Source: Mixta hanseatica
Lineage (GTDB): Bacteria; Pseudomonadota; Gammaproteobacteria; Enterobacterales; Enterobacteriaceae
NCBI RefSeq assembly: GCF_023517775.1
Contig: NZ_CP082904.1
Location: forward strand, 1-64,000
Direction of reading: 5' to 3'
DNA: 64,000 nucleotides
Under the pieces are notes generated by a model, which saw nothing but the letters and a program-made list of their open reading frames with translations, ran no database searches and was not told where the DNA came from. Both the position numbers and the translations under genes were made by a program. This document shows positions 25,125-52,911 of the stretch, one piece after another. Each line of letters begins with the position of its first letter. Positions within the stretch are counted from its first letter, which is position 1.

Positions 25125-25151
25125 TAAAGCGTACCTTAACCATGTCGATAA
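25125..25151 (+). promoter_or_regulatory. Canonical sigma-28 promoter of the chemoreceptor gene
   Basis: TAAAG (25125-25129), a 14-base spacer and GTCGATAA (25144-25151) match the E. coli FliA consensus (TAAAG-N14-GCCGATAA) with one change. It lies 39 bases before the chemoreceptor start and places that gene in a flagellar regulon. Confidence 0.85.
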
Positions 25152-25189
25152 CCACACTATCGTTCGTTTTTTTAACATAAAGGTGAGTT

Positions 25190-27133
25190 ATGAGCGGTTT
25201 GTCGGCGGTAGTGGCAGGTTTCAATAACTGGAGCGTGGGTAAAAAATTGACCTCCGGCTTTATTCTGGTGCTGTTGATAACGGTTGGGATTGCCGCAGCC
25301 GGTATTAAAGGTTTTGCCAATATCCGGACGGATACGCAAAAGCAGCAAATTGTCGTACAAATGGTGCAGGCGCTTAATCAGGGCCGTCTTAACCGAACCC
25401 TTTATCAGTATACCGGCGAAAGCCGTTACAGTGATGAAAATGCGCGCGCTTTGCAGCAGCTGCAGCAGCTGGGTCAATCGCTTTATCAGTTTAACTGGCA
25501 CCCGGAAGGGAAAGCGAAGCTGGATACGGTAAAGCAGGGAATAGAAGGTTACCTGGCGCAGCGAGAAATTTTTGTCGGCACGGTTAATCAGCGTAGCGCC
25601 CTGCTAAAAGAGATGGATATCAACACGCTGGCTGATTATGGCCACAGCAGTGAAGCGTTAAACCGTCAGGCAGGTGTTGATGTCGGCATTGCGCTGGCGG
25701 CCTCCCGTCTGGACGCGGCTATTCAGCAGACGTTAAAAGCCTGGCCCGACTTTATTGCTAAGCCGGATGAGACGCAGAAAGCGAATATGATCAATAAACT
25801 CAGCGCGGTAGCCGAGCAGGCCGAGCTGCTGAAAAATCAGCAGCCAGGCGGTGAGAACGGCTGGGTTGCGGGTTTAATTCTGGATACGGCGCGCCTGAGC
25901 GCGGCGTTGAATAACTACCAGGCGGCGTTTACCGTTCAGGAGAAGCAGTCAGCGGAGTTGACCGCCACGGCGGGCAAACTGAATGCGGCGGTAACCGATC
26001 TCTATCAGGCGCAGTTGGTGAACGTCATTGACGCCATTAGCGAGGCCAATGTCATTATGTATGGTGCTGCCGTGTTGGGCGTACTGGCCGGATTGATTAT
26101 CGCCTGGCGCATCACCCGTAATATTACCCAGCCGCTACGTGAAACGTTGCTGGTAGCGAATAAAATTGCCGCGGGCGATTTGACGGCGCAGATCGATACG
26201 CAGCGCGGCGATGAGCCGGGGCTGCTGATGCAGGCGGTAGGGCGAATGAACCAGAACCTGAAAGAGATTATCGTTCAGGTGCGTCAGGGCGTGGATAACG
26301 TGGCGCGCGCTTCAGCGGAAATCGCCGCCGGGAACATCGATCTCTCTTCACGTACTGAAGAGCAATCGGCAGCGGTGGTACAAACGGCGGCCAGTATGGA
26401 GCAGCTAACCTCCACTGTGAAACAGAATGCGGAAAATGCTCATCAGGCCAGCAGCCTGGCGCAAGAAGCCTCGCAGAATGCCGGGCGCGGCGGCAAAATC
26501 GTGCAGGAAGTGGTGGTGACGATGGAAGAGATCAGCACCAGCTCACGCAAAATCGCTGACATCATTAACGTGATTAACGGTATTGCTTTCCAGACCAATA
26601 TCCTGGCCTTGAACGCGGCGGTAGAAGCGGCGCGCGCCGGTGAACAGGGACGCGGCTTTGCCGTGGTCGCGGGTGAAGTACGCAGTCTGGCGCAGCGCAG
26701 CGCGACGGCGGCGCGTGAAATCGAAGCCTTGATCAGTCAGGCGGGCGAGAAGGTAAATAATGGTTCGCAGCTGGTCAGCAGTGCTGGTCAGGCCATGGAA
26801 GATATCGTGCGTTCGGTCTCCCAGGTGAGCAGCATCATGCATGAGATCGCTCATGCTTCTGAAGAGCAGAGCCGGGGTATTCTGCAAATCGGCCAGGCGA
26901 TGACGGAAATGGACACCACGACGCAGCAGAACGCCGCGTTGGTGGAAGAATCTTCTGCCGCGGCCTCTTCGCTGGAAGAGCAGGCGAAGCAGCTGGAACA
27001 GACGGTAGCGGTATTTAAAACGGCGTCGCAGGGGCTGGCCGATCGCAGTCCTGTCACCCAACCGGCGCGCTACGTTGTTGCGTCGAAACCTCAGCCGGTG
27101 TCTGCCGCGGCAGGCGGCTGGGAGCAGTTCTGA
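25190..27133 (+). CDS. Methyl-accepting chemotaxis protein
   Basis: A 647-residue transmembrane chemoreceptor. TM1 (about 16-38), a helical periplasmic sensor of some 250 residues, TM2 (about 288-310), HAMP, and the kinase-control hairpin with tip [20 protein letters not shown] near 463-482. It ends GWEQF, fitting the xWxxF tether for CheR/CheB. The sensor is about 100 residues longer than that of Tsr/Tar and the ligand is unknown. A canonical sigma-28 promoter precedes it and a strong terminator follows. It sits 4 kb outside the flagellar island, with lldPRD between. Confidence 0.93.
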
Positions 27134-27138
27134 CAGCA

Positions 27139-27171
27139 GGCTCCGCCCACGGGCGGAGCCTTTCTTTCTCT
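27139..27171 (+). terminator. Terminator after the chemoreceptor gene
   Basis: A 10-bp inverted repeat GGCTCCGCCC/GGGCGGAGCC, two bases apart, followed by TTTCTTTCTC. Confidence 0.88.
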
Positions 27172-27188
27172 TCCGGTCATCAAAACGG

Positions 27189-28373
27189 TTAACCGTTGGC
27201 TACCGCTTTCGCCAGCGCATCCGGCTGCATGGGCGATACCGCCTGTACCAGTGATTCACGGGTAATTTCCGCAATCGAACGCGCACCGGTGAGGGTCATC
27301 GCTACACGCATCTCTTTTTCCACCAGGTTCAGCAGATTAGTCACCCCGGCTTCGCCCGCTGCCGCCAGCGCATAGAGAAACGCCCTGCCCAACAAAACCG
27401 TATCCGCGCCCAGCGCAATCATGCGCACCACATCCAGCCCGCTGCGCACGCCGCCATCGGCGAGAATCGCCAGCTCACCCTTCACCGCGTCAGCAATGGC
27501 CGGCAGCGCCCGCGCCGATGAGAGCACGCCATCCAGCTGTCGTCCGCCGTGGTTAGACACCACAATACCATCCGCGCCGAAGCGCACCGCATCACGCGCA
27601 TCTTCCGGATCGAGGATGCCTTTAATCACCATCGGGCCTTTCCAGAAATCGCGTATCCATTCCAGATCGCGCCACGAGATCGACGGGTCAAAATTATTGC
27701 CCAGCCAGCCAATATAATCCTCCAGCCTGGTTGGCTCGCCGCGATAAGCGGAAATATTGCCCAGATCGTGCGGGCGGCCGTGCAGCCCCACATCCCAGGC
27801 CCACTGTGGATAAAGCGCTGACTGAATATAGCGGCGCATGGCCGCATTTGGGCCGCTCATGCCGGAGTGGGCATCGCGGTAGCGTGCGCCCGGCACCGGC
27901 ATATCCACGGTAAAGACCAGCGTTGAACAGCCTGCCGCCTGCGCCCGCTCCAGCGCATTGCGCATAAAGCCGCGATCGCGCAGTACATACAGCTGAAACC
28001 ACATTGGACGCTGGATCGCCGGCGCGACCTCCTCTATTGGACAAAGCGAAACGGTGGAAAGCGTAAAGGGTATGCCCTTTTTATCCGCTGCTCTGGCCGC
28101 CTGCACTTCGCCGCGGCGCGCATACATGCCGCACAGGCCGACCGGCGCCAGCGCCACCGGCATCGACAGAGTTTCGCCAAACAGCTGAGTCTCCAGGCTC
28201 AGCGAAGACATATTACGTAAAATTCGCTGGCGCAGGGCGATTTGCGCCAGGTCTTCGCTGTTACGACGCATCGTATATTCGTCATAGGCACCGCCATCGG
28301 CGTAGTGAAACAGAAAGGGCGGTACTTTCGCTTTGGCTGCGGCACGGTAATCTTTTGCGGATGAAATAATCAC
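27189..28373 (-). CDS. lldD: L-lactate dehydrogenase (FMN, quinone-linked)
   Basis: Membrane-associated flavoprotein oxidising L-lactate to pyruvate and feeding electrons to quinone. It is 394 residues of the FMN-dependent alpha-hydroxyacid dehydrogenase family, with the catalytic His in [13 protein letters not shown]-binding [21 protein letters not shown] and the N-terminal [22 protein letters not shown]. The start is GTG, overlapping the lldR stop by four bases (GTGA). Last gene of lldP-lldR-lldD. Confidence 0.96.
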
Positions 28374-29140
28374 GGTTGTCCTCGCTTACTGTCCGGAATG
28401 CGCATACTGCGCGCCCGTCGCGCCTCTTCTTCATGCAGGTTACGCATGGTGGCGTCGACAAATTCAAGATGATGGATAGTTACGCTGCGCGCGCGATCGG
28501 CGTCGCCAGCGATAATGGCCTGACAAATCGCCTCATGTTGCACCGCCAACTGGCGGAAAATTTCCGGCGCGGTATACATACGCTGGCGGCTCTGCATCAC
28601 TGACGACTGCAATAAATCAAACAGGCCGCGCATCGCCTGCAACAGCACCAGATTGTGCGCCGCCTCGGCGATCGCCAGATGAAAACGCACGTCAGAATGG
28701 GCTGCCAGATCGGGATCATCACGGTCGCTGACCTGCTGCATCATTTCGCAGCAGCGCCGAATGTGCGCTTTATCTTCCAGCGTGGCGCGTCGGGCCGCAT
28801 GCCAGGCGGTACTGGATTCAATGGCGATGCGGGCTTCCAGCACGTCATAACGGTAACCCGGATCGTCAGTCAGTAACGTACTAAGCGGCATAACCAGCCG
28901 GGTTGACGACCAGTCGTCACGCTGCCTGGCGACAAAATTGCCGCCGCCGCGTCGGCTAATCAGTACTCCTTCGCTAATTAATTTTTGTAACCCTTCGCGC
29001 AGCGACGAACGCGAAACGGCCAGCTGCTGCGCCAGCTGACGCTCTGCGGGCAGCCTTGCGCCAGGCTGCAGCTGTTGTTCGGCGATAAACTGACGTAGCT
29101 GCTGCGCCAGGCGATCGGCCAGCCTGATTTCATCCGCCAT
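28370..29140 (-). CDS. lldR: LldR, GntR-family lactate regulator
   Basis: FadR-subfamily GntR regulator of about 256 residues. A winged helix ([38 protein letters not shown]) is followed by an all-helical FCD effector domain ([29 protein letters not shown]). In E. coli LldR binds two operators flanking the lldP promoter and responds to L-lactate; two matching sites are found here. The ATG at 29140 overlaps the lldP stop (TGATG); another in-frame ATG at 29155 is possible. Confidence 0.94.
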
Positions 29141-30792
29141 CAGGGGATCATCCATGGGAAAACCCAGGCCTGTAGCGAGGTAATCACCCCGACGATACAG
29201 GTGAAAATCAGGCTGTGCTTAACGGTGAAGCGGAACAGATCGGCCTCTTTGCCCACCAGCCCAACCGCCGCGCAGGCGATAGCGATCGATTGCGGCGAGA
29301 TCATTTTGCCGGTGACGCCGCCGGTGGTATTGGCGGCGACCAGCAGCACTTCCGGCACGCCGATCTGCTGTGCCGTGGTGGCCTGTAACGCGGCAAACAG
29401 CGCATTGGAGGAGGTATCAGAGCCGGTAAGAAAGACGCCCAGCCAGCCAAGGAACGGCGAGAAGAAGGTAAAGGCGTTGCCGGTATGGGCCAGCGCCAGC
29501 GCCAGGGTAGTGGAAAGCCCCGAATAGTTAGAGACAAAGGCAAAGGCCAGCACCGCGCCGATGGAGTAGATCGGCAGCGCCAGCTCGCGCAGCGTTTCGG
29601 CAAAGGCGCTGACCGCCTGAGCGGGACGCATGCGTAACCACAGCACTGACAGCAGCGCGGCGATAAAAATTGCCGTGCCGGTGGCAGAGAGCCAGTCGAA
29701 TTTATATATCGCGGCGTAAGGCGTGGCGGCAGCCACCACCGGCGGCATTTTAATAACCTGCTGATGCAGGAACGGCACGGCAAAGCTCAAGACCCAGTCG
29801 TAAAGCGCGCCGCCGGGCGCAAACAATGCTTTAAACGGCGGGATGCTCCACAGGGTAACCGTAAGGGTTAAAAACAGGAACGGCATCCAGGCGCGGGTAA
29901 TTTGCGCCGCGCTATAGCGTGTTGCACTGCGCGTTGCGGCGGCGGCGTTTTCCTGATTATCGAAGCGGAAGATGCGGGCTGGTTTCCAGACGCGTAAAAA
30001 CAGCGTCAGGCAGAGCAGCGAGACCAGCGCGGAAATCACATCCGGCAGCTCCGGGCCAAGGAAGTTAGAGGTCAGGTACTGGGCGATAGCAAAAGAGCCG
30101 CCTGAAACCAGCACCGCAGGCCAGGTCTCTTTCACGCCGCGCCAGCCATCCATAATCGCCATCACCCAAAACAGTACAATCATGGTCAGGAACGGTAGCT
30201 GACGCCCGGCCATCTGGCTGATGGCCATCGCATCTATGCCGGTAACCTGACCGGCGACGATAATCGGAATGCCCATCGCGCCGAAAGCCACCGGCGCGGT
30301 ATTGACGATCAGGCACAGTCCGGCGGCATAAACCGGCTTAAAGCCCAGTCCGACCAACAGCGCGGCAGTAATCGCCACCGGCGCACCAAAGCCTGCGGCC
30401 CCCTCCAAAAAAGATCCAAACGCAAAGCCGACGATCAGCATTTGCAGGCGTTGATCTTCGGTTATTGAAAGAATGGAATTACGGATAATTTCAAACTGCC
30501 CGGTTTTCACTGTGATTTTATAAACAAACACGGCGGCGACAATAATCCAGGCGATAGGCCAGAGACCGTAAAGAAAGCCGTAAATAGCCGAAGCCAGCGC
30601 CTGGTCGAGCGGCATACGATAAAACAGCAGGGCGACGGCCAGCGCAATCAATACGGTAATCGTCCCGGCGATATAGCCTTTCAGCCGCAGCCGCGTCAGG
30701 GCGAAAAAGAAAAACAGAATGGGAAGCGCGGCAATCAGGCTTGATAGCCAAATATTATCCAGCGGATCGTAGAGTTGCTGCCAGTTTTGCAT
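29140..30792 (-). CDS. lldP: L-lactate permease
   Basis: Inner-membrane lactate:H+ symporter, 550 residues with about 13 membrane segments. Family blocks: [41 protein letters not shown] and [20 protein letters not shown]. The ATG at 30792 ([15 protein letters not shown]) matches the E. coli start region; the in-frame start at 30813 adds seven residues. First gene of the lldPRD operon. Confidence 0.96.
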
Positions 30793-30874
30793 GCTTGCTG
30801 TTCTCCTGAGCATTACGCCTTGTTACCGGGGCGACGAGATCGGCACCGCGATCGGATGACGCATCGCTACAGGC

Positions 30875-30885
30875 TGGTCAGACCA
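30875..30885. promoter_or_regulatory. LldR operator, proximal
   Basis: TGGTCAGACCA, a TGGT-N3-ACCA palindrome of the FadR-subfamily GntR type, lies 83 bases upstream of lldP. Confidence 0.72.
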
Positions 30886-30991
30886 AAAAGGGTGCAGATG
30901 TTAAATTATTGTTTGTCTCACGGTGAACAGAATGCAATCTTTCCTTAACGCTTTAATTTGACGGTGGAAGGAGAGTCACAAACGGGCATTT

Positions 30992-31004
30992 TTGGTAGGA
31001 CCAA
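30992..31004. promoter_or_regulatory. LldR operator, distal
   Basis: TTGGTAGGACCAA is a 13-bp palindrome with the same TGGT-N3-ACCA core as the proximal site, 117 bases away. Two operators bracketing the promoter reproduce the E. coli lldPRD arrangement, where looping by LldR is proposed. Confidence 0.82.
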
Positions 31005-31083
31005 TTTTGTGGAACAGAGATGAGCGCAACAGGGAGAGCGTGCCTGTCGGCGTTAAGCACGTTAAAGGGGAGATAGCGATAGC

Positions 31084-31110
31084 AAAAAAAAAGCTTCCTG
31101 TTCAGGAAGC
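31084..31110 (-). terminator. Terminator after flgN
   Basis: On the minus strand a 7-bp stem GCTTCCT/AGGAAGC with a 4-base loop is followed by nine T. It ends the leftward flgA-flgM-flgN operon and marks the left border of the flagellar island. Confidence 0.93.
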
Positions 31111-31141
31111 CGGCAAATCACACAAGAGAGTGGTATAGCTT

Positions 31142-31585
31142 TTATATAGTAATATTGTAAGCACGCGCTTTTCCGTTATTTTCGGACTGTCCACCTGCGT
31201 TATACAAACCAGGCGAGGCGGCGGCTTTATTCATCGCTTTGCTCAGGCTTTGCACCTTTTGCATATGCATATCAAGCAGATGGCTGGTTTGCAGATTCAT
31301 TTCCCGCGCTTTTTCAGTGGACTGTAATATCCTCTCCCAGCAACCCGCCAGCGTTGGCTGTTGCGCATAGGGCGCAAGTAGCCGCAGGCGTTTTTCCGTC
31401 TGCTTTCTTTGTTCATCATGCCAGGCGAGGGTAGATAACAGGCGGCTTTTAATATCAGAGAGTTGCTGCAGCGCAACGGCGTTAACCTGCGCATAGCTTA
31501 ACTGCTTAATTTCCTCGGTTAGCACCGCTTCCAACTCGTTAAGCGTATCCTGCAGCGTATTTAGCGTCGTCTGTAAGGTTTCCAT
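31142..31585 (-). CDS. flgN: FlgN, chaperone for FlgK and FlgL
   Basis: Cytoplasmic export chaperone of 147 residues for the hook-filament junction proteins FlgK and FlgL. It is mostly helical with an amphipathic coiled-coil pattern and the LLDMHMQKVQSLSKAMNKA region typical of the substrate-binding C terminus, followed by an NAGGQ stretch. It follows flgM by 11 bases and is the last gene before a terminator. Conservation is modest, but position between flgM and the island edge is decisive. Confidence 0.9.
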   Translation of the reverse strand: METLQTTLNTLQDTLNELEAVLTEEIKQLSYAQVNAVALQQLSDIKSRLLSTLAWHDEQRKQTEKRLRLLAPYAQQPTLAGCWERILQSTEKAREMNLQTSHLLDMHMQKVQSLSKAMNKAAASPGLYNAGGQSENNGKARAYNITI

Positions 31586-31596
31586 TATTATTTCTT

Positions 31597-31890
31597 TTAC
31601 CGATCGTCGAGAATATTTTGCAGCAACGCCTGGGCGATTTTTTCGTAATCCATTTTCAGTTCGCCGTTACGGATGGCATCTTTAATTTTTTCGACGCGCT
31701 CTGTATCAATATCGCGCGAACTATCGATATTAATCTGCTGCGTTAATGCGCTGAGTTTGACATCTGTGCCTTTCTCAGGCGTGGCGTTTGCTTTGGTACT
31801 GTTAGCCAGATTCCGTTGAGCGAGCTTGACTTCCTGCTGAACATGGGCTGGCGTAACAGGTTGCGTTTTCAGCGTATGGTTAATGCTCAT
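31597..31890 (-). CDS. flgM: FlgM, anti-sigma-28 factor
   Basis: A 97-residue inhibitor of FliA that is exported when the hook is complete, releasing late gene expression. The N-terminal half is low in structure; the C-terminal sigma-binding half carries VEKIKDAIRNGELKMDYEKIAQALLQN. The ATG at 31890 has GGAGAAA upstream; the longer in-frame start at 31935 would read into the promoter. A sigma-28-type promoter lies just upstream, the usual feedback arrangement. Confidence 0.93.
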   Translation of the reverse strand: MSINHTLKTQPVTPAHVQQEVKLAQRNLANSTKANATPEKGTDVKLSALTQQINIDSSRDIDTERVEKIKDAIRNGELKMDYEKIAQALLQNILDDR

Positions 31891-31934
31891 ATTTTTCTCC
31901 GAAACCTGGATATTGACCTCTACCGTTACTAACA

Positions 31935-31961
31935 ATATCGGTGTTTCCGCAAATCCCTAAA
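31935..31961 (-). promoter_or_regulatory. Sigma-28-type promoter of flgM
   Basis: Minus strand: TTTAG (31961-31957), 14-base spacer, ACCGATAT (31942-31935). It shares the unusual TTTAG -35 and the 14-base spacer with the flgK and fliC promoters of this island. It lies 45 bases before flgM, at the flgA 3' end boundary. Confidence 0.65.
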
Positions 31962-31968
31962 GATGAAA

Positions 31969-32658
31969 TTACAAATTTATCCTTACGCTGCCATCACTGG
32001 TAACGCTACCCGTTACCAGTTGACCGCTCTTCATTCGTACCCGAACGGCTTCATTAATCGCGGCATTATCCAGCGCTTTGCCGCGGGTTATAATATGAAA
32101 ACCGTTACCGGAAGCGATGACGTCGGTTTCTTCGCCGCGGTTAATACGCCAGCGTTTGCGCAGTCTGTTTTCCGTCAACGGCTGGCCAGCGCGCACGGGA
32201 CGGGTTAATACAGCACCTTGCAGCGCATTCATATTCATAACAAGGCCGGAAGGCAAATTCGCCAGCGATCCGCTGCGCTTAATCACATCATCCTGACTAA
32301 CGGCATGTCCCGCTGTTAAATCTTTGGCCACCACCCACCAGCTGCCTTCTGCTTCAATACGCACCTGCAAAAAATATTTTTTACTGCCACAGCGGGCGAC
32401 CACTGTTCGGTTACCGGTCAGGCGTTGATTGCCGCTCAGGGAGAGATGTGGATCGGCACACAGCGGAGCCAGCTTATCCGGCGGCGTTAATAAAACCCCA
32501 TGGCGCGTGACGGCGACGTTGCTATTTTTATCAGTACCGTTTAATAAACGGTTAATTTTTTCTGTTAGCGTACTATTATCAGCCTGTGCATTAAGAGTAA
32601 ATAAGAACCAAAATAATGTTAATATTGTATTGCGCCATAGGTGGCGTGATTTTTTCAT
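31969..32658 (-). CDS. flgA: FlgA, P-ring assembly chaperone
   Basis: Periplasmic chaperone for FlgI ring assembly, 229 residues. The signal peptide (about 1-26, ending NAQA) is followed by the SAF/ChapFlgA domain (AGHAVSQDDVI, GLVMNMNALQGAVLTRPVRAGQPL) and the C-terminal IRVRMKSGQ-like block (VRVRMKSGQLVTGSV). First gene of flgA-flgM-flgN, divergent from flgB across a shared control region with an FlhDC-type box. Confidence 0.94.
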   Translation of the reverse strand: MKKSRHLWRNTILTLFWFLFTLNAQADNSTLTEKINRLLNGTDKNSNVAVTRHGVLLTPPDKLAPLCADPHLSLSGNQRLTGNRTVVARCGSKKYFLQVRIEAEGSWWVVAKDLTAGHAVSQDDVIKRSGSLANLPSGLVMNMNALQGAVLTRPVRAGQPLTENRLRKRWRINRGEETDVIASGNGFHIITRGKALDNAAINEAVRVRMKSGQLVTGSVTSDGSVRINL

Positions 32659-32751
32659 ACGCAGCCGGAAAGGTGAATAATTAAGAATAAGATGATCGCC
32701 TTGTTTGCTATACAGCCAGTGTAACGCTAACTGGGAGTAAGTTAACGTGCT

Positions 32752-32777
32752 AAATGACGCCAGTATTGCCGCTTATT
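32752..32777. promoter_or_regulatory. FlhDC-type box between flgA and flgB
   Basis: On the minus strand AATAAGCG (32777-32770) and TCATTT (32757-32752) are 12 bases apart. The half-sites match the FlhD4C2 consensus AAATAGCG-N10-12-CGCTATTT in part, and the same pair recurs before fliA and between fliE and fliF. It would serve both divergent operons. Confidence 0.65.
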
Positions 32778-32915
32778 AAAAATATCGTGCCGTTTCCCTC
32801 TATTAGTTAATAAAATAGATAGAGATTTGTCCTGTTTTTGCGGTTTAGATTATTTGCAATCCATCTTATAGTCTCTGTGTTAATCTCCGTGTAGCAAAAT
32901 AAGGCCAGTCTTTCC

Positions 32916-33329
32916 ATGATGGATAAACTCGATAAGGCGTTATATTTTCAGCAGGAAGCACTAAATTTACTCACCAGTCGGCAGGATATTATAGCGTCTA
33001 ATATCGCTAATGCTGATACGCCGGGTTATTTAGCCAAGGATATCGATTTTTCTCAGCAGCTTAAAAAGGCCGTGGTGCAAGAACGCCGACAGGCGCACTC
33101 CTTAACGCTTAACCTGACGGAAAAACGCCATATTCCGGCAGTCGCGCCCGTTCATAATCGCAACGAATTATTATATCGCATTCCCGATCAGCCCAGCGCC
33201 GATGGTAATACCGTTGATATGGATCGTGAACGCGTTAATTTCGCGGACAATAATATCAAATATCAAACCAGCTTAACCCTTCTCGGATCGCAAATTAAAG
33301 GGATGATGAATGTCATCTCGCAGGGGTAA
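32916..33329 (+). CDS. flgB: FlgB, proximal rod protein
   Basis: Flagellar basal-body rod component of 137 residues, exported without a signal peptide. It shows the rod-family N-terminal motif [27 protein letters not shown] and the C-terminal heptad region. It starts ATGATG; the second ATG (32919) is equally possible. First gene of flgBCDEFGHIJ, with FlhDC box upstream. Confidence 0.95.
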
Positions 33330-33334
33330 TTGTT

Positions 33335-33739
33335 ATGTCGTTATTTAGCATTTTTGATATTTCAGGTTCTGCCATGACGGCGCAGTCAAAAAGATTAAAT
33401 GTCAGCGCCAGTAATATGGCCAACGCCGATAGCGTGGCCGGGCCGGACGGTAGCCCTTATCGCGCGCGTCAGGTGGTTTTTCGCGTTAACCAGGCGCCTG
33501 GTCAAGAGATCGGCGGCGTGAGGGTGAGCGATGTTATCGAAAGCGATGCGCCGGATCGTCTGGTGTATGAGCCAGGTAATCCCCTGGCGGATGCCAAAGG
33601 CTATCTGCATATGCCAAATGTAAACGTGGTGGGCGAAATGGTGAATACCATCTCCGCCTCACGCAGCTATCAGGCCAATGTAGAGGTAATGAATACCGCC
33701 AAGGCAATGATGCTTAAAACGCTGACGTTAGGTCAATAA
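33335..33739 (+). CDS. flgC: FlgC, proximal rod protein
   Basis: Rod component of 134 residues: the N-terminal [22 protein letters not shown] and C-terminal [36 protein letters not shown] are diagnostic. It begins 5 bases after flgB. Confidence 0.96.
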
Positions 33740-33750
33740 GGAGAGTTGGA

Positions 33751-34410
33751 ATGGCCGTTTCGCCGGTAACCAGTAACTACGACGCCCCCAGCAGCAGCAC
33801 CGGTTCCAGTATTGATGACATTACCAATAACTTTATGAACCTTCTCGTTGCGCAGATGCAGAACCAGGATCCTACTAATCCTATGGATAACAATCAGCTT
33901 ACTTCGCTGATGGCACAGTTTAATACCGCTGCGGGCGTGCAGCAGCTGAACAGTACTCTGGGTAATGTCGGCACGCTGGTGAACAGCATGCAGCAAATGA
34001 ACGCGGCCCAATGGGTCGGGCGCGGCATTTATGTCGAAGGGGACAGCAGTGTCGCCTCGACAGACGATACCTTTGCTTTTTCTGTTAATAATGACGTCGA
34101 TAAAGTTAGCGTGGTCTTAACCGATAGCGCCGGCAATAGCTATACCGCCGATCTGAAAGATGTCGAGGCGGGCGTGCATAAATTTACCCTTGATGATTTA
34201 AGCGGTTTTCAGCCCGCCGAGCCAACATTTGATAATGGCGAGACCTACAAGGTGACCTATACCGCCGCCAATGAAGATGGCTCTGCGCCAAAAATTGTCT
34301 CGTTAAAACACGCCAAAGTGGAAAGCGTCTCTTTTACCTTGTCCGGCGCGGTACTGCAGCTGGGACTGGGCGGCAGCGCCACCTTGGGTGAAGTTTATTT
34401 GATTGAGTAA
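33751..34410 (+). CDS. flgD: FlgD, hook cap
   Basis: Scaffold that caps the growing hook, 219 residues. The N-terminal block NNFMNLLVAQMQNQDPTNPMDNNQLTSLMAQFN is followed by a FLIG/Tudor-like middle domain, and the protein ends GEVYLIE. It is coupled in the flgBCDE run by an 11-base gap. Confidence 0.95.
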   Translation: MAVSPVTSNYDAPSSSTGSSIDDITNNFMNLLVAQMQNQDPTNPMDNNQLTSLMAQFNTAAGVQQLNSTLGNVGTLVNSMQQMNAAQWVGRGIYVEGDSSVASTDDTFAFSVNNDVDKVSVVLTDSAGNSYTADLKDVEAGVHKFTLDDLSGFQPAEPTFDNGETYKVTYTAANEDGSAPKIVSLKHAKVESVSFTLSGAVLQLGLGGSATLGEVYLIE

Positions 34411-34453
34411 TGTCTATTTCAGCGTTGATTGTTAGCGACCAGGAAGGTTACGT

Positions 34454-35677
34454 ATGAGTTTTTCACAGGGTCTTAGCGGACTGAATGCAGCGTCACAAGC
34501 TCTGGATGTGGTGGGTAATAACATCGCCAACTCCCAGACGATTGGTTTTAAATCCGGCTCTATCTCTTTTGCCGATGTTTTCGCCGGTTCGCAAATCGGT
34601 ATGGGCGTGCAGGTTTCCGGCGTCAGGCAAAATTTTAGCGATGGCGTGCTGGGACAGGGCACCGGGAGCCTGGATATGGGTATCCAGGGGAATGGTTTTT
34701 TCCGTCTGGTCAGCGAGGCCGGCCAGGTGTTTTATAGCCGTAATGGCCAGTTTAAAACCAATGAAAATGGTTACATCATCAATGATACCGGCATGCAGTT
34801 AACCGGTTATCAGGCCAGCGGAACGCCGCCGACTATCCAGCCGGGCGCGGCGATAGGTCCGATCCAGATTCCTACCGGCCAAATGCCGGCGCGCGCTTCT
34901 GACAGCGGCATTATGAAAGGCAATCTTGATTCCGGCTCGGAAGTGATCGATCCGGCCCTTGAGTTCGATCCGAAAGACAGCAACAGCTACAACTCCGTCA
35001 GCCAGATTGATGCCTATGACAGCCTGGGCAACCGTCACACCATCAACGTTTACTTCGTTAAAACCGGCGACAATCAATGGAAGATCCATACCAGCGATAC
35101 TACCGCACCGATCGTTGATGGCGATGGCAAGGCCCAGTACCAGGAAATGGATATCGCCTTTGACAGCGCCGGTCAGCTTACCACCAACCCAGCCAGGGTG
35201 CCGATCGCCGGCGCCGCTTATAACGGCGCCGAAGCGCTGCAATTCGAGCTGGATATGACCGGTATGACGCAGCAGGCCACCGAGACCGCGATGGAAAGCC
35301 CGAGCACCACTGGTTATCCGCCGGGAATGATGAACGGCTTTACCGTAGGCGACAGCGGTCAGATCATCGCTTCTTACAGCAATGGACAACAGCAGCTGTT
35401 GGGTCAGGTGGTGCTGGCTAACTTCACTAATGCCGGCGGGCTGGCTTCCAGCGGCAACAATGCCTGGACCGAAACCCCCTCCTCGGGACAGCCGGTGGTG
35501 GGCATTGCCGGAACCGGCAACCTGGGCAACCTGTACGGTAATAAGGTTGAAGCTTCCAACGTCGACCTGAGCCAGGAGATGGTCAATATGATCATTTTCC
35601 AGCGCAACTACCAGCCCAACTCACAGACAATTAAAACCCAGTCTGAGCTGTTACAGACGCTGGTGAACCTTGGTTAA
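34454..35677 (+). CDS. flgE: FlgE, hook protein
   Basis: Structural protein of the flagellar hook, 407 residues. N-terminal FSQGLSGLNAASQALDVVGNNIANSQTIGFKS and C-terminal VEASNVDLSQEMVNMIIFQRNYQPNSQTIKTQSELLQTLVNL flank a variable surface-exposed centre. The length is close to E. coli FlgE (402). Confidence 0.96.
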   Translation: MSFSQGLSGLNAASQALDVVGNNIANSQTIGFKSGSISFADVFAGSQIGMGVQVSGVRQNFSDGVLGQGTGSLDMGIQGNGFFRLVSEAGQVFYSRNGQFKTNENGYIINDTGMQLTGYQASGTPPTIQPGAAIGPIQIPTGQMPARASDSGIMKGNLDSGSEVIDPALEFDPKDSNSYNSVSQIDAYDSLGNRHTINVYFVKTGDNQWKIHTSDTTAPIVDGDGKAQYQEMDIAFDSAGQLTTNPARVPIAGAAYNGAEALQFELDMTGMTQQATETAMESPSTTGYPPGMMNGFTVGDSGQIIASYSNGQQQLLGQVVLANFTNAGGLASSGNNAWTETPSSGQPVVGIAGTGNLGNLYGNKVEASNVDLSQEMVNMIIFQRNYQPNSQTIKTQSELLQTLVNLG

Positions 35678-35689
35678 TGGCGGGCTGAC

Positions 35690-36439
35690 ATGGATCGTGC
35701 AATTTATACCGCAATGGGCGCGGCCAACGCCGCGTTAAATCGCCAGGCCGTTACGGCGAATAACCTGGCGAATGTTTCCACTAACGGTTTCCGCGCTCAG
35801 CTAACCGCTTATCGCGCGGTGCCGGTTAACGGTCCTGGCGATGCGACGCGCGTGCTGGTTGCCGAATCCACGCCTTATAACGACTACACCATGGGCTCGG
35901 TTAATCAGACCGGGCGCAGCCTGGACGTTGCGATGCCGCAAAACGGCTGGCTGGCGGTTCAGCTGCCGGACGGCAGCGAAGCCTATACGCGCGACGGTAA
36001 TATCGAAGTCGACAGCGAAGGGCAGCTGCGTGTTAAAGGCTACCCGGTAATGGGCGATGGCGGACCGATCGAGATCCCGCCGCAGGCGCAGATCACTATC
36101 GCGCCAGACGGCTCCATTACCGCGCTGGGCGCAGGCGACGAACCGACCGCGCTGGCCCTGATTGGGCGGCTGAAAATGGTCACGGCGCAGCCCTATCTGC
36201 TACGACATGGCGACGACAGCCTGTTTCATGTCGATGCCAGCGTAGAGGAAAACCCGGTATTGCCCGCCGACCCGGAGCTGAGACTGATGCCCGGCGCACT
36301 GGAAAGCAGCAACGTCAGTCCGGTTAAAGCGATGGTGGATATGATCGCCACAGCGCGCGGTTTTGATATGCAAATGAAAGTAATTTCAGCCGTCGATGAT
36401 AACCAGAAAAATGCCAATCAACTGCTTAGCGTAAGCTAA
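35690..36439 (+). CDS. flgF: FlgF, proximal rod protein
   Basis: Rod component of 249 residues: [34 protein letters not shown] at the start and [28 protein letters not shown] at the end, the rod/hook-family pattern. It lies between flgE and flgG with short gaps. Confidence 0.96.
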
Positions 36440-36461
36440 TAACGGCAAGGAGAAGCCTGTC

Positions 36462-37244
36462 ATGATGCACGCCTTATGGATTGCAAAAACCGGTCTGGAA
36501 GCGCAGCAGACCAACATGGATGTGATTACCAACAACCTGGCTAACGTTAGCACCAACGGCTTTAAACGTCAGCGTGCGGTATTCGAAGATTTGTTGTATC
36601 AAACCTTACGTCAGCCGGGCGCCCAGTCTTCAGAGCAGACCACCATCCCTTCTGGTTTGCAAATTGGTACCGGCGTACGTCCGGTTGCCACCGAGCGCAT
36701 TCACAGCCAGGGCGGCATGACGCAAACCAGTAATGCAAAAGATGTCGCTATCAGCGGGCAGGGCTTCTTTCAGGTTCTGCTGCCGGATGGCACCACGGCC
36801 TATACCCGTGATGGCGCCTTTCAGATCGATCAGAATGGCCAGCTGGTGACGGCTAACGGCTATCCTATCCAGCCCGCCATTACGTTGCCGCAGGATGCCG
36901 GTACGCTAACGGTGGGCAGCGACGGCCTGGTCAGTGTGACCCAGGCGGGACAAACCGCGCCGCAGCAGGTAGGGCAGCTGACGCTGGCGACCTTTATCAA
37001 TGATTCCGGGCTGGAGAGCATTGGCGAAAACCTGTATCGCGAAACCCAGTCTTCCGGCGCGCCGAATGAATCCACGCCTGGCATGAATGGCGCGGGCGCG
37101 TTGAAGCAGGGCTATGTGGAAACTTCCAACGTCAACGTGGCGGAAGAGCTGGTCAATATGATCCAGACGCAGCGCGCATACGAGATCAACAGCAAGGCGG
37201 TCACTACGTCCGATCAAATGCTACAGCGCCTGGCACAGCTCTGA
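36462..37244 (+). CDS. flgG: FlgG, distal rod protein
   Basis: Distal rod protein of 260 residues, sharing with FlgF and FlgE the terminal helices ([69 protein letters not shown]). The length equals E. coli FlgG. A GAAGG-like ribosome site precedes it; the ATGATG start leaves a one-codon ambiguity. Confidence 0.97.
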
Positions 37245-37311
37245 CGGTAACGGAACCAGGGCCGCAACCGTTATTGCCGCCCTTTTCATCTGCTCTTACG
37301 TAGTGAATATC

Positions 37312-38067
37312 ATGATAAATCCGCCTGACTTTGCGCCGTCCGGAGCGCAGCAATATGCCGCTCGCCGTGCTGTCGGTCTCTGTTTAGCCCGTCTGCTGAT
37401 GCTGTTTATCCTCGGCTCGCTGCTGACAGGCTGTGCCGGCATCATTCATAAACCCCTTGTGGACGGCATTACCAGCGCCAGCCCGATGCAGACCATGCCG
37501 GGAACGGCAAATGGCTCGATATTTCAGATGGGGCAGGCGATGAATTACGGCTATCAGCCGCTGTTTGAAGATCGTCGCCCACGTAACATTGGCGATACCC
37601 TGACCATCCTGCTGCAAGAAAACGTTAGCGCCAGTAAAAGCTCCTCAGCGAACGCGTCAAAAGATGGCTCAGTTGGACTGGGCTTTAGCGCTATGCCGCG
37701 TTTTATGAACGGTTTATTCGGCGGCGATCGGGCGAAAACCGCGATCGAGGGCAGCAATGAATTTACTGGTAAAGGTGGGGCCGCCGCCAGAAATACCTTT
37801 AGCGGCACCATTACCGTTACCGTGCACCAGGTGCTGGAAAACGGCAACCTGCTGGTGGTTGGCGAAAAACAGATCGCCATCAATCAGGGCACCGAATACA
37901 TCCGTTTTTCCGGCGTAGTGAATCCCCGCACCATTAGCGGCAGCAATACGGTGGTCTCTTCGCAGGTTGCTGATGCGCGCATCGAATATGTCGGCAGCGG
38001 CTATATCAACGAGGCGCAGCAAATGGGCTGGCTGCAGCGCCTGTTCCTTAACCTTTCTCCTTTTTAA
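37312..38067 (+). CDS. flgH: FlgH, L-ring lipoprotein
   Basis: Outer-membrane L-ring lipoprotein that with the P ring forms the rod bushing, about 251 residues. The signal ([16 protein letters not shown]) ends in the lipobox LTGC. The mature part is highly conserved: [40 protein letters not shown] and [23 protein letters not shown]. The N terminus before the signal helix is long, the start is uncertain (ATG 37312 or GTG 37303) and no good ribosome site is visible. Confidence 0.92.
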
Positions 38068-38078
38068 CAGGCTGACTA

Positions 38079-39200
38079 ATGAGAATTTCATCTTCACTCT
38101 TTTGTCTGCATGGGCTCTGCCTCAGCCTGGCCCTGCTGCTGATACCGCCAGGCTACGCCGAACGGATTCAGGATTTAACAACGTTGCAGGGCGTGCGCAG
38201 CAATTCGCTGCTCGGCTATGGGCTGGTGGTGGGGCTGGACGGCACCGGCGACCAAACAATGCAAACCCCCTTTACCACACAAAGTCTGAACAACATGCTG
38301 TCACAGCTGGGCATAACCGTGCCGAACGGCACCAATATGCAGCTTAAAAACGTGGCGGCGGTAATGGTCACTGCCGATCTACCGCCATTTGCCCGTGCCG
38401 GTGAAAAAATCGACGTGGTTGTTTCCTCAATGGGTAATGCGAAAAGCCTGCGTGGCGGCACCTTGCTGATGACACCGCTGAAAGGTGTTGATAATCAGAT
38501 TTATGCGCTGGCACAGGGAAATCTGTTGGTTTCCGGCGCCGGCGCGCAAAGCGGCGGCAGTCAGGTGCAGGTTAACCAGCTTAATGGCGCGCGTATTAGC
38601 GACGGCGCAACCGTCGAGCGCGAAGTGCCCACACAGTTTGGCCTGGAAAATGTGCTTAGGCTGCAGTTAAAAGAAGAAGATTTTACGTTGGCCCAGCGCA
38701 TCAGCGATGAAATCAATCATCACTTCGGCGGAGGCATCGCTATGGCGGAAAACGCCCGCGTCATCAAGCTGTTCGCGCCCAGCGACAATACGGAAAAAGT
38801 GCGTTTCATCTCTCGTATTCAAAACCTTTCCGTTAAGACCGGTCCGAGGGAAGCGCGGATTGTGGTTAACTCGCGCACCGGCTCCGTGGTGATCAATCGC
38901 CACGTAACGCTGGAAGCCTGTGCCGTGGCGCAGGGTGATCTTACGGTAGAGATCTCCCGCAGCAACCAGGTCAGCCAGCCGGATACACCGCTGGCCGGAG
39001 GAGAGACGGTGGTAGTGCCCGATACGCAGGTTTCGCTGCGAGAGCAGAGCGGCGCCTTACAAAAAGTTAACACCAGTGCCGACCTCAATGCAGTTATCCG
39101 CGCGCTGAACGGCCTCGGCGCCACGCCAAATGACCTGATGTCGATTTTACAATCAATGAAAAGCGCGGGCTGCCTGCGTGCGCAGCTGGAGATGAACTAA
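38079..39200 (+). CDS. flgI: FlgI, P-ring protein
   Basis: Periplasmic P-ring protein, 373 residues with a cleavable signal peptide ending around GYAERIQDL. Conserved blocks are [49 protein letters not shown], and the C terminal [29 protein letters not shown]. Its TAA overlaps the flgJ ATG by one base. Confidence 0.96.
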
Positions 39201-40126
39201 TGGAAAGCGCTTCTCTCATCCAGGGGGCCGCTTTTGATGCGGGTTCCCTGGATACGCTAAAGCGCCTGGCGAAACAGGATGCGCAGCGTGGTCTACAGGG
39301 CGCCGCCCAGCAGATGGAAGGGTTGTTCGTGCAGATGATGCTAAAGAGTATGCGGGCAGCCAGCTTTAAAGACGGCTTGTTTAACTCGCAGCAGTCAGAG
39401 ATGTTCACCGCTATGTACGATCAGCAGCTGTCGCAGGATATGGCGGCACACGGAAAACTGGGGCTGGCTGATCTTATGCTGCAACAGCTGGGCGGCATCC
39501 CAACGACCACGGCGGGCGGCACGCCGGTCGCCTTTTCCTCTCGCCCACTCCCAGCTGGACGAGCATTCTTCCCACCACCTGCCGTCAACCGCGCCGTTTC
39601 GAACGGGCAAGCGCTCCCGTCCGCGACCGGCGGCGGGTTTATTTCCCGCCTGTTAGCGCCTGCGGTGGAAGTTTCACGTCGAACGGGCATCCCGCATCAG
39701 CTCATCATTGCGCAGGCTGCTCTGGAATCAGGGTGGGGAGATAAAGAGATACGTCGGGAGAATGGCCAGCCAAGCTATAACCTGTTTGGCGTAAAAGCGA
39801 CGCCGGGCTGGAAAGGGGAAACGGCGGAAATAACCACAACCGAATATATCAACGGCGTGGCGCAAAAAGTAAAGGCGGCATTCCGCGTTTATCATTCTTA
39901 TACCGATGCGCTGCATGATTATAGCCAGCTGTTAATAAAAAATGCCCGCTACCAGAAAGTGACGCAGGCGAAAACGCCGGAACAGGCCGCGCAAGCGCTA
40001 CAGGATGGGGGGTATGCCACCGATCCACAATATGCAAAAAAATTGATCGGGGTCATTCACCAAATTAAAAGTAACCTAACGCAAGCGGCAAATGCTTATA
40101 AAACCGATCTCTCGTCAATATTTTAG
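39200..40126 (+). CDS. flgJ: FlgJ, rod cap and peptidoglycan hydrolase
   Basis: Dual protein of 308 residues. The N-terminal half (about 1-100: AAQQMEGLFVQMMLKSMRAA) is the rod cap; the C-terminal half (about 150-300) is a glucosaminidase that opens peptidoglycan for the rod (IIAQAALESGWGDKEI with the catalytic Glu, and YNLFGVKA). A Pro/Ala linker joins them. Translation is coupled to flgI (TAATG). Confidence 0.95.
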   Translation: MESASLIQGAAFDAGSLDTLKRLAKQDAQRGLQGAAQQMEGLFVQMMLKSMRAASFKDGLFNSQQSEMFTAMYDQQLSQDMAAHGKLGLADLMLQQLGGIPTTTAGGTPVAFSSRPLPAGRAFFPPPAVNRAVSNGQALPSATGGGFISRLLAPAVEVSRRTGIPHQLIIAQAALESGWGDKEIRRENGQPSYNLFGVKATPGWKGETAEITTTEYINGVAQKVKAAFRVYHSYTDALHDYSQLLIKNARYQKVTQAKTPEQAAQALQDGGYATDPQYAKKLIGVIHQIKSNLTQAANAYKTDLSSIF

Positions 40127-40136
40127 CAGTACAGGT

Positions 40137-40163
40137 TTTAGAGAGTTTATTCCTCGCCGATAG
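40137..40163 (+). promoter_or_regulatory. Sigma-28-type promoter of flgK
   Basis: TTTAG (40137-40141), a 14-base spacer and GCCGATAG (40156-40163), about 65 bases before flgK. The -35 and flanking AGAG-TTTAT closely match the fliC promoter of this island and differ from the canonical TAAAG. Confidence 0.8.
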
Positions 40164-40228: not shown

Positions 40229-41872
40229 ATGAATCTCATGTATCTGGCACAAAGCGGTCTGAGCGCCGCCCAGGCATCATTAAACGTCGTCGGTAATAAC
40301 TTAAATAATGCTTATACGGTGGGATATAGCCGGCAAAATATTATTTTAGGCGAGGCGGGCGGTAAAACTACGCAAAATGGTTACTTTGGTTATGGCGTAC
40401 AGGTTAATGGCGTGAAACGCGCCTATGATGGTTTTATTAATAATCAGTTACGCAGCGCGCAAACCTCTTATAGCGCCCTTTCCAGTCGTTATGAACAGCT
40501 TAGCCAGATCGATAATATGCTGGGCGACAAAAGCAATAATGTTTCCGTTTCGCTGAATAATATTTTTGGCGCACTGGAAAAAATGAGCAGCGATCCGGTA
40601 AGCATGGCCGCGCGACAGGAAGCGATGTCGCAATTTAAATCGACCGCCTACCAGTTTCAAAGCAGCGCCCGGACGCTTACCGGACTGGAAAAAAGCACCA
40701 ACACCCAAATCAACCAAACCGTAAACGATATTAATTCGTATGCCAAAGAGCTGGCGACGGTGAATGCCGCGCTGTATAAAACGCATGCGCAAACCGGCGG
40801 ACAGCCAGCAGATTTGCTGGATCAACGCGATTTGTTGCTGAATAAGTTAAGCAATCTGGTCGGCGTGCGGGTGGATGAAAATCAGCTGACCGGTGAAGTT
40901 ACTGTTGCGCTTTCCAACGGGTTGCCGCTGGTAAACGGCGATCGTACCTGCCAGTTCGAAGCTACCCCTTCTGCTGCTAATCCGGCACGGTTAGAAGTGG
41001 CCTATATTGATGCTTCCGGCAACGCCATCAAGTTGGATGAAGAGAAGATCAACAGCGGGAAGCTGGGCGGTTTATTTAAATTCCGTAATGAGGATCTGGT
41101 TGACGCTCGCGATCAGCTAAATCAGCTTGCGTTGCAAATGGCTAACCGTTTTAACGAAGTGAATGCGGCAGGGTTTGATATTGAAGGCGAAGCTGGCGGA
41201 GATATTTTCACCATTACCGATCCGACAGCGTTAATGAATCGTAATAATCAGGGCGATGCCTCGCTCGATATTAGCTTTAGCGAAATTTCGCAGGTGAAAG
41301 CGCAGGATTATACCCTGGTTTATCAGGGGCCGGGTGCCAACGATTGGCTAATTACCGATAGCAGCGGCAGAGAGATTACGCCGGAAATTGGCGCAGCGGG
41401 CGAGCTCACCTTTGAGGGTATCACCATCCAGCCGCAGGGCACGCCTGAAGCCGGCGACAGCTTTATTTTTAACTCCGCTGGCGGCGTGGCTGAAAATATT
41501 GCGGTAGCCATTAGCAGCGGCGACAAAATTGCCGCATCCAGCTCCGATGATATCGATGAAGAAAGTAATAACGAAAATATCAAAGATATGATCGCTATTA
41601 AAAACGAGAGCCTGGTCGGCAAGGCGACATTAACCGAAGCCTATGCCAGCCTGGTCAGCTCTGTAGGCTCTTCGGTTAATGCGTTAAAGGGCAATACGGA
41701 AGTTGCAGGATACGTTAAAGACCAGCTGGTTGAGCAGCAACAAAATGTGGCGGGCGTGGATCCGACGGAAGAATACATTTATATGCAAATGTATACCCAA
41801 TATTACCAGGCCAACACCCAGGTATTGCAAACCGCCACCACTATTTTTGATGCAATTTTAAGTATCCGATAA
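40229..41872 (+). CDS. flgK: FlgK, hook-filament junction protein 1
   Basis: HAP1, 547 residues, the first junction zone between hook and filament. N terminal AQSGLSAAQASLNVVGNNLNNAYTVGYSRQ and C terminal EEYIYMQMYTQYYQANTQVLQTATTIFDAILSIR are the conserved coiled-coil ends; the middle is variable. It is a late gene with its own sigma-28-type promoter and is followed by flgL after 17 bases. FlgN is its chaperone. Confidence 0.96.
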   Translation: MNLMYLAQSGLSAAQASLNVVGNNLNNAYTVGYSRQNIILGEAGGKTTQNGYFGYGVQVNGVKRAYDGFINNQLRSAQTSYSALSSRYEQLSQIDNMLGDKSNNVSVSLNNIFGALEKMSSDPVSMAARQEAMSQFKSTAYQFQSSARTLTGLEKSTNTQINQTVNDINSYAKELATVNAALYKTHAQTGGQPADLLDQRDLLLNKLSNLVGVRVDENQLTGEVTVALSNGLPLVNGDRTCQFEATPSAANPARLEVAYIDASGNAIKLDEEKINSGKLGGLFKFRNEDLVDARDQLNQLALQMANRFNEVNAAGFDIEGEAGGDIFTITDPTALMNRNNQGDASLDISFSEISQVKAQDYTLVYQGPGANDWLITDSSGREITPEIGAAGELTFEGITIQPQGTPEAGDSFIFNSAGGVAENIAVAISSGDKIAASSSDDIDEESNNENIKDMIAIKNESLVGKATLTEAYASLVSSVGSSVNALKGNTEVAGYVKDQLVEQQQNVAGVDPTEEYIYMQMYTQYYQANTQVLQTATTIFDAILSIR

Positions 41873-42813: not shown

Positions 42814-42891
42814 TTTCCTGCATAAAAATAATGGAATGACGACGTTTTCGGTATCAACGTCAAATTCAGGCAGAATGATTAAGGATAATCA

Positions 42892-44706: not shown

Positions 44707-45444
44707 ATGGACAATGTCATTGTGAATGAATTATATACCTCTGAAGGTATGGTAGATAAAAATGCCTTATGGAAAAAGTATGCTTTCCTGGTACGCCATG
44801 AGGCATTAAGGCTACAGGTGCGGTTACCCACCTGCGTAGAGCTGGATGATTTGATTCAGGCGGGTGCAATTGCGCTCCTTAACGCTATCGACCATTTCGA
44901 TCCTAAAAAAGGCATTGTTTTTAGCACCTATATTACCCAGCGTATACGTTGGGCTTTGATTGATGAACTACGAGAGCGTGACTGGGTACCGCGTCGTATC
45001 CGCAGTAACGCACGAGAAATTGCCGGGGTTATTCATCGTATCGAACAGGCGACGGGAAAAGCCGCTAAAGAGGCGGATATTGCTGCTGAGATGAATATAA
45101 CACTTAGTGAGTATAGACAAATGCTGGCGGATACTAACGCCAGCCAAATATGCTCGCTGGATGAACTGCAGGAAGAGCTGGCGGACAGGTTTGAACAGCC
45201 TGATATACAACATGAAAAACTTAATCCGCTCAATAAGATTACGCAGCACAGGTTACTGACAAAAATTGCTGATGAGATTAAAAAGCTACCCGAAAGGGAG
45301 CAGGTATTATTGAATCTCTACTACCAGCAAGAGTTGAATATGAAAGAAATTGGTGAAATCCTTGGAATAACGGAAACGCGGGTAAGCCAGCTGCATAGCC
45401 AGGGAATTAAACGCATCCGTTCTCGTTTGCAATTACTCGGGTAA
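44707..45444 (+). CDS. fliA: FliA, flagellar sigma-28
   Basis: Sigma factor for late flagellar genes, about 245 residues. Region 2: ELDDLIQAGAIALLNAIDHFDP and FSTYITQRIRWALIDELRERDWVPRRIR. Region 4: LPEREQVLLNLYYQQELNMKEIGEILGITETRVSQLHSQGIKRIRSRL. Region 4 differs from E. coli FliA at several positions next to and within the helix that reads the -35, which is notable because the island promoters also have a different -35. The start is uncertain: ATG 44707 or GTG 44722, the latter aligning with the E. coli start. No fliZ follows; flhDC is next. Confidence 0.95.
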   Translation: MDNVIVNELYTSEGMVDKNALWKKYAFLVRHEALRLQVRLPTCVELDDLIQAGAIALLNAIDHFDPKKGIVFSTYITQRIRWALIDELRERDWVPRRIRSNAREIAGVIHRIEQATGKAAKEADIAAEMNITLSEYRQMLADTNASQICSLDELQEELADRFEQPDIQHEKLNPLNKITQHRLLTKIADEIKKLPEREQVLLNLYYQQELNMKEIGEILGITETRVSQLHSQGIKRIRSRLQLLG

Positions 45445-45877: not shown

Positions 45878-45915
45878 CTGGATTATTTTACACAAAATCA
45901 ATGTGGAATATAAAT

Positions 45916-46263: not shown

Positions 46264-46277
46264 CGGAGCTAGCAATC

Positions 46278-46814: not shown

Positions 46815-46862
46815 ACAGCGCACTGCACGATAACGTTGATGGTAAGAAACTGGGATCGTTAA

Positions 46863-46905: not shown

Positions 46906-46957
46906 TTCACTATTAATAAATATAAAGAAACAGGCGTGTTTATAATAAGGAGACAAC

Positions 46958-52884: not shown

Positions 52885-52911
52885 TTATCGGCCTCAGATA
52901 AATTCTCTAAA
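52885..52911 (-). promoter_or_regulatory. Sigma-28-type promoter of fliC
   Basis: Minus strand: TTTAG (52911-52907), 14-base spacer, perfect GCCGATAA (52892-52885), about 84 bases before the fliC start. The -10 is the consensus; the -35 is TTTAG rather than TAAAG, as in flgK and flgM of this island. Confidence 0.85.

Follow-up and report, generated by a model that had tools for sequence, protein, structure and literature searches.

Two sigma-28 factors and two classes of sigma-28-type promoters in Mixta hanseatica: a flag-3b flagellar locus beside a flag-1 system

The window analysed here comprises bases 1-64000 of contig 1 (NZ_CP082904.1) of the Mixta hanseatica genome (4.44 Mb, 5 contigs). 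It contains an island of flagellar genes with its own gene for the sigma-28 factor FliA, and a chemoreceptor gene (methyl-accepting chemotaxis protein, MCP) outside this island. A sequence-only reading of part of the window had described a TAAAG-type sigma-28 promoter before the outer receptor and a TTTAG-type before flgM, flgK and fliC of the island, and had supposed that FliA copies with different -35 preferences may exist, the receptor belonging to another, primary flagellar system. The features that carry the argument are given below, with promoter scores (bits) from the flag-1 and flag-3 position weight matrices (PWMs) discussed further on.

25125..25151, plus strand: flag-1-type sigma-28 promoter of the outer chemoreceptor, TAAAG-N14-GTCGATAA (flag-1 16.2, flag-3 -1.9)
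25190..27133, plus strand: chemoreceptor outside the island (PF00015 MCPsignal above cut-off; NCBIfam MCP models below curated cut-offs)
31597..31890, minus strand: flgM, anti-sigma factor (TIGR03824 above cut-off; ATG at 31890 set by relatives)
31935..31961, minus strand: flag-3-type flgM promoter, TTTAG-N14-ACCGATAT (flag-3 22.3, flag-1 -5.9)
40137..40163, plus strand: flag-3-type flgK promoter, TTTAG-N14-GCCGATAG (flag-3 22.4, flag-1 5.6)
40229..41872, plus strand: flgK (TIGR02492 above cut-off at contig 1 positions 40232-41269)
44707..45444, plus strand: fliA of the flag-3 system, the second sigma-28 (PRK06986.1 and FliA_WhiG above cut-off; flag-3 clade, support 100/100)
45370..45378, plus strand: FliA residues 222-224, T-E-T (G-E-S in flag-1), coordinates from 44707 + 3 × (n-1)
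45901..46814, plus strand: flhD and flhC of the flag-3 system (NCBIfam above cut-off)
51704..52801, minus strand: fliC (NCBIfam PRK06819.1 above cut-off)
52885..52911, minus strand: flag-3-type fliC promoter, TTTAG-N14-GCCGATAA (flag-3 25.7, flag-1 6.7)

Both promoter types described earlier were found again. The receptor site, 38 bases upstream of the ATG at 25190, is the only match of its pattern in the window, a number reached by 0 of 100 shuffles. The pattern TTTAG-N14-[ACG]CCGATA[AGT], searched with spacers N13-16, occurred exactly three times, before flgM, flgK and fliC, against a chance expectation of 0.09, and three matches were obtained in 0 of 100 shuffles; the fliC site (52911-52885, minus strand) lies beyond position 40163, at which the earlier reading ended. 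An extended pattern, TTYAG-NNWNYY-N8-VCCGAT, which was designed with the three island sites known, matched only these three in the whole genome, with 0 matches for its control. One more TAAAG-N14-ACCGATA match, at 34101-34126, falls within the reading frame 33751-34410 (flgD by order) and is probably due to chance.

The island is a locus of the flag-3b type with its own FlhDC, FliA and FlgM. Its gene order, as named from profiles, is flgN, flgM, flgA, flgC, flgE, flgK, fliA, flhDC, motA, cheA, then fliC, fliD and then fliF, where flgN and fliD fall below profile cut-offs and the intervening genes are inferred from order. This corresponds to the flag-3b succession of block 3, block 2 and block 1, the last of which extends past the window and is partly seen. 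There is no open reading frame of at least 80 residues on either strand between fliA (45444) and flhD (45901), in agreement with the absence of fliZ in flag-3b, and a separate flag-1 system co-occurs in the same genome, as is described for flag-3b loci. The island FliA scores 285 bits with PRK06986.1 (cut-off 201) and 262 with FliA_WhiG (cut-off 189.6, profile positions 1-224 of 224), and is 95% identical to FliA of Mixta theicola.

The genome carries two fliA genes, not a sole one using both promoter types, and the second flagellar locus envisaged by the sequence-only reading is also present. The two full-length FliA matches above the NCBIfam cut-off, at 44767-45432 in the window and at 2563456-2564118 of contig 1, are 2.5 Mb apart. 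The latter is placed within a standard flag-1 region with flhDC, cheA and three chemoreceptors, as well as flagellin and fliD genes located by tblastn. Sites found before its flgM, flgK and fliC read TAAAG or TCAAG, as at the outer receptor. Among 392 genomes of the family 24 encode a window-like FliA at E 1e-89, a cut-off that may miss distant flag-3 members; 19 of them are flag-3, while five (G406, G412, G534, G615, G679; our handles for genomes begin with G and for loci with L) have a single FliA each and belong to what we call clade X. Flag-1 FliA is also present in 18 of the 19 flag-3 genomes, the exception being G509.

Promoters were compared by scanning 220 bases upstream of tblastn-located fliC, flgK and flgM for T..AG-N14/15-..CGAT with -35 positions 2 and 3 left free, in flag-3, flag-1, X and flag-4/Sodalis loci. 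From named genomes 60 loci were taken, 36 of which were used as flag-3, three as clade X and six as flag-4/Sodalis/Wigglesworthia, the rest being distant. All 48 flag-1 sites read T[AC]AAG (31 AA and 17 CA at positions 2-3). At flag-3 class 3 promoters the -35 is not the TAAAG/TCAAG typical of FliA: 88 of 89 sites read TT[TC]AG (71 TT, 17 TC), and the remaining GC site, that of L038 at -212, is doubtful, as is the fliC site of the same locus, both lying about 200 bases from the gene. The TTYAG signature is therefore general to flag-3. Sites before fliC read AA, i.e. TAAAG, in five of five found in clade X (three distinct), and AA in three of three found in flag-4/Sodalis. In genomes with both systems fetched the split follows the system for flgM in 17 of 17 and for flgK in 17 of 17; G706, whose flag-3 flg region was not fetched and whose flag-1 flgK reads TAAAT, was excluded from this paired comparison.

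These counts refer to 145 sites, 125 of them distinct, the 20 exact repeats arising partly from overlap between named records and other genomes. Outside the counts are 13 upstream regions without a site: in flag-3 flgK of L045 and L049 and fliC of L016 (second copy) and L022; in flag-1 flgK of L159 and fliC of L111 (two copies); and six in clade X (flgK of L178, L180 and L181, flgM of L180, second fliC copies of L029 and L178). Of these L049 (flgK) and L022 (fliC) show TTTAG by eye. Four of the 36 named flag-3 loci (L018, L045, L047, L049) yielded no site, partly because tblastn found no gene start. A scan anchored on the -10 alone, as [CT]CGATA, had been dropped because it missed many flag-3 sites, whose -10 may end GATGA, GATTA or CACGATAT.

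Distinct N14 sites (43 flag-1, 69 flag-3) show how far the classes differ beyond the -35. Position 2, although left free in the scan, is T in 69 of 69 flag-3 sites, in contrast to the wide variation at several positions of the spacer. Flag-3 sites are also A/T-rich at positions 8-12, numbered from the first base of the -35, a feature that is much weaker in flag-1. The first -10 base is A or G in 86% of flag-3 sites and G in all flag-1 sites; the last one is T in 49% of the former and in none of the latter. The CGATA core at N14 spacing is present in the window sites, and flag-3 as a whole has some N15 spacings and a variable last A of the core. Separate matrices, which the sequence-only reading had proposed to build, were trained without any Mixta site on 34 flag-1 and 55 flag-3 sites. 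The flag-1 minus flag-3 score ranged from -40.4 to -9.7 for flag-3 sites (n=81) and from 13.8 to 36.3 for flag-1 sites (n=48), with no overlap; this separation is over all N14 sites and outside Mixta includes training sites.

In the FliA tree the flag-3 proteins (47 rows) form one clade with support 100/100, the sister of which is clade X (100/93); a subclade made up mostly of Erwinia, Enterobacter and Pantoea rows may represent flag-3a. At the 85% level nine positions tell flag-3 and flag-1 apart; of these only 68 (K versus Q), 187 (I versus V, less clean), 222 and 224 also distinguish flag-3 from X and most flag-4/Sodalis rows. Position 222 is T in 45 and S in two of the flag-3 rows, and G in flag-1 (21 rows), flag-4/Sodalis and clade X; position 224 is T in 46 and V in one, and S or P in the same other groups. 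By homology with sigma-70 the two residues presumably lie near its R584, where the region 4.2 helix that recognises the -35 begins. In the numbering of structure 6pmi they are equivalent to G217 and S219 of the E. coli protein. The Morganella protein has S and V here, yet its fliC promoter is TTTAG with N15, so that neither T is strictly required; common to all 47 flag-3 rows is the loss of G at 222. Contacts of sigma-28 were also sought in PMC12781870, and the part of it at hand yielded none. Since TAAAG is what the fliC sites found in clade X, flag-4 and flag-1 share, TTYAG is derived and arose with the FliA changes on the flag-3 stem.

Three loci taken at first as flag-3 (L028, L029, L034) were reassigned to clade X because of a single FliA and TAAAG fliC sites, and the tree agreed. 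Together with L178-L181, L085 and L088 they represent genomes such as Tenebrionibacter intestinalis and Enterobacteriaceae bacterium LSJC7, whose only FliA is sister to that of flag-3 and has VGEPR in the recognition helix, with TAAAG before fliC and AGAAG before flgK. Clade X is possibly a further type of flagellar locus.

Thus the genome has two FliA proteins and two promoter classes with non-overlapping scores, and the promoter class covaries with the FliA clade. Based on these comparisons we consider it quite probable that, in this cell with a flag-3b locus beside a flag-1 system, each FliA reads its own promoters, FliA region 4.2 and the -35 element having both changed on the flag-3 stem. 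On this stem the equivalents of E. coli G217 and S219 would have been replaced, both mostly by T, and the -35 of class 3 promoters would have passed from T[AC]AAG to TT[TC]AG. The flag-3 FliA would then read flgM, flgK and fliC of the island, and the flag-1 FliA the genes of its own system together with the outer receptor gene that starts at 25190, each FlhDC-FliA-FlgM cascade driving its own late genes with insulation mainly by the -35. It is very likely, as far as sequences can tell, that the paralogous sigma-28 and its promoters diverged together, and the different -35 preferences supposed earlier gain support from the split in 17 of 17 paired genomes and from the region 4.2 changes. Residues 222 and 224 would be the candidate cause of the -35 preference, and cross-reading in the cell would be weak, which would probably allow each flagellum to be switched on independently of the other. 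A more specific version, about as likely as not, is a specificity switch of single origin: two region 4.2 residues (G to T and S to T) would have shifted the -35 preference, three or more class 3 promoters would have followed, and the insulated set would have been kept in four Enterobacterales families, usually beside the ancestral one.

Several observations weigh against this interpretation. For flgK and fliC of the island the -10 scores no lower with the flag-1 than with the flag-3 matrix (12.3 versus 11.9 and 13.6 versus 10.8), which means that class separation stems from the -35 side and the spacer, and that the flag-1 FliA could partly read these promoters. Promoters within each class are orthologous, hence the counts are not independent events and the most economical reading is a single change on the stem that involved three promoters. 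Before flgK and flgM clade X has AGAAG and GCAAG rather than TAAAG. Besides 222 and 224, FliA positions 68 and 187 also track the split. The distant lateral FliA of Aeromonas, considered as a test of position 222 alone, has T at 222 and S at 224 in six of six rows; no recognisable site was seen upstream of the flagellins there. A looser TWWAG pattern is hardly enriched in the whole genome (33 matches versus 27 for the reversed control), and isolated matches elsewhere therefore carry little meaning.

An exception is fliD, which does not follow the class rule. In the window its possible promoter belongs clearly to neither type:

53239..53265, plus strand: possible fliD promoter, TTATC-N14-ACCGATAG

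Among 18 flag-3 loci with a fliD start 16 have mixed sites and two (L022, L040) have none. TAAAC was read in four (L015, L016, L027, L035), TTATC in three, all Mixta (the window, L011, L012), TCATC in two, both Kosakonia (L032, L033), TTTAT in three and TTCAT in one (L017, L020, L021, L023), TAATC in L025 and, at N15, in L030 (AATCT in the N14 frame), and TTATT in L038. Flag-1 fliD sites read TAAAC, TAATC, TAAAA or TAATA in the eight loci where fliD was found. In E. coli fliD is also bound by FlhDC, according to the part of PMC4183435 available to us, so this gene may depend less on the choice of FliA; alternatively, the flag-3 FliA may accept TAAAC at fliD. As to motA, 34 of 35 flag-3 copies lack a [CT]CGATA site within the 300 bases upstream (interval 46810-46957 in the window), which makes it probably not a class 3 gene there; the flag-1 motA of this genome carries TAAAC-N14-GCCGATAA.

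The TAAAC sites lend some weight to a one-way specificity, in which one FliA is strict, the other broad, and cross-talk goes in one direction. The flag-3 factor may accept them, and the flag-1 factor may be the strict one, as 0 of 52 E. coli sites, counted by us in the table at hand, begin TTT or TTC. A broad factor would, however, permit TAAAG, and this is found at 0 of 89 flag-3 flgM, flgK and fliC sites, which leaves this possibility rather doubtful. It is improbable, in turn, that the difference is historical only, the flag-3 ancestor having had TTTAG while both FliA read both types with unchanged preference. The orthology of promoters within each class, the overlap of -10 elements between classes and TAAAC at fliD in four of 16 flag-3 loci with a site would all fit such a history, but the same two-position change in three separate promoters would not. 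Neither would the invariant T at position 2 amid a variable spacer, the class-specific tolerance (T/C at position 3 in flag-3, A/C at position 2 in flag-1), or the region 4.2 changes on the same branch. Very improbable, finally, is that the outer receptor belongs to flag-3 and is transcribed from a canonical promoter. In five Mixta genomes its distance from flag-3 fliA is no more than about 20 kb, but the flag-3 score of its promoter is -1.9, two of eight Mixta genomes (G663, G756) contain the island and no receptor at E 1e-150, and G755, which lacks flag-3 FliA and FlgK, keeps receptor and promoter, an argument weakened by its apparently frameshifted flag-1 fliA.

The assignment of the outer receptor to the other, primary flagellar system, as supposed in the sequence-only reading, is thus supported by the fit of its promoter to the flag-1 matrix. 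Its orthologue was found in six of eight Mixta genomes at E 1e-150, and TAAAG-N14-G[TC]CGATA[AG] precedes it in all six, the -10 starting 44-47 bases before the start codon. The sole FlgK of G755 is 94% identical to the flag-1 FlgK of the genome under study. Its flag-1 fliA appears frameshifted in the first part (L189, about 7460-8180), either by real loss or by assembly error, so that this genome is not a clean natural knockout and makes a weaker case. G755 retains flag-3 flgN and flgM with a TTTAG promoter next to lldP (L188:2913-3735), and the sequence that follows them resembles the end of an IS1 element. In the genome under study no TTYAG-N13 to 16-N[CT]CGAT site was seen when the 1.5 kb preceding each of 26 MCP-domain matches was scanned, stretches that include 5' gene parts, while a T[AC]AA[GC]-N13 to 15 site precedes nine of the 26, some inside genes.

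The remaining features of the window are the following.

27189..30813, minus strand: lldD, lldR and lldP, separating the receptor from the island (NCBIfam above cut-off)
31142..31585, minus strand: flgN (NCBIfam PRK15459.1, E 4.6e-16, below curated cut-off with 59 of 200 bits, plus position)
42892..44553, plus strand: island chemoreceptor, downstream of flgKL (PF00015 above cut-off; NCBIfam MCP models below cut-off)

In the gap 42814-42891 no own sigma-28 site was seen before the island chemoreceptor; this receptor, the only one of the island, is probably transcribed together with flgKL. Elsewhere, in L008 (9718-13401), an open frame of 1227 residues stands next to two flag-1 flagellin genes.

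If the proposed reading is right, it offers a replicated example of a duplicated regulator that escaped cross-talk together with its sites, names two candidate residues for the -35 choice of sigma-28, and helps to assign late flagellar genes and receptors to flag-1 or flag-3 with nothing but sequence. A further prediction is separate switching of the two flagella, the outer receptor staying with flag-1.

It is already known that a bacterium may have two flagellar systems and a sigma-28 factor for each. In the dual polar/lateral systems of Plesiomonas, Vibrio and Aeromonas the cell likewise has a pair of such factors, FliA and FliAL or LafS, although there, unlike here, the second one serves the lateral system. 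A word search of the main text of PMC11242183, which deals in part with these systems, found neither "motif" nor "consensus". With the E. coli sigma-28 regulon, as far as the part of PMC4183435 at hand presents it, our sites share N14 spacing and the CGATA -10 core, and the E. coli -35 equals that of Mixta flag-1 gene by gene (flgM TAAAG, flgK TCAAG, fliC TAAAG). Unlike it, the island promoters have TTTAG, and the flag-3 -10 mostly starts with A or G and often ends with T; among the 52 motifs from chromatin immunoprecipitation sequencing of E. coli FliA in Table 2 one begins TTA (ycgR). Our literature searches, mostly at the level of listings, found no report of a flag-3 promoter class or of promoter specificity between two FliA, and the word "promoter" is absent from the main text of PMC7526173 by word search. 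Among the closest known systems is the flag-3b locus itself (De Maayer et al. 2020, PMC7526173), for which the part of that study at hand names three Mixta strains as carriers. Locus and island have the same blocks in the same order (flgNMA...KL-fliA-flhDC-motAB-cheAW, fliCD, fli block), both are without fliZ beside fliA and both co-occur with flag-1. To this description the present analysis adds the promoter class and the region 4.2 changes of FliA.

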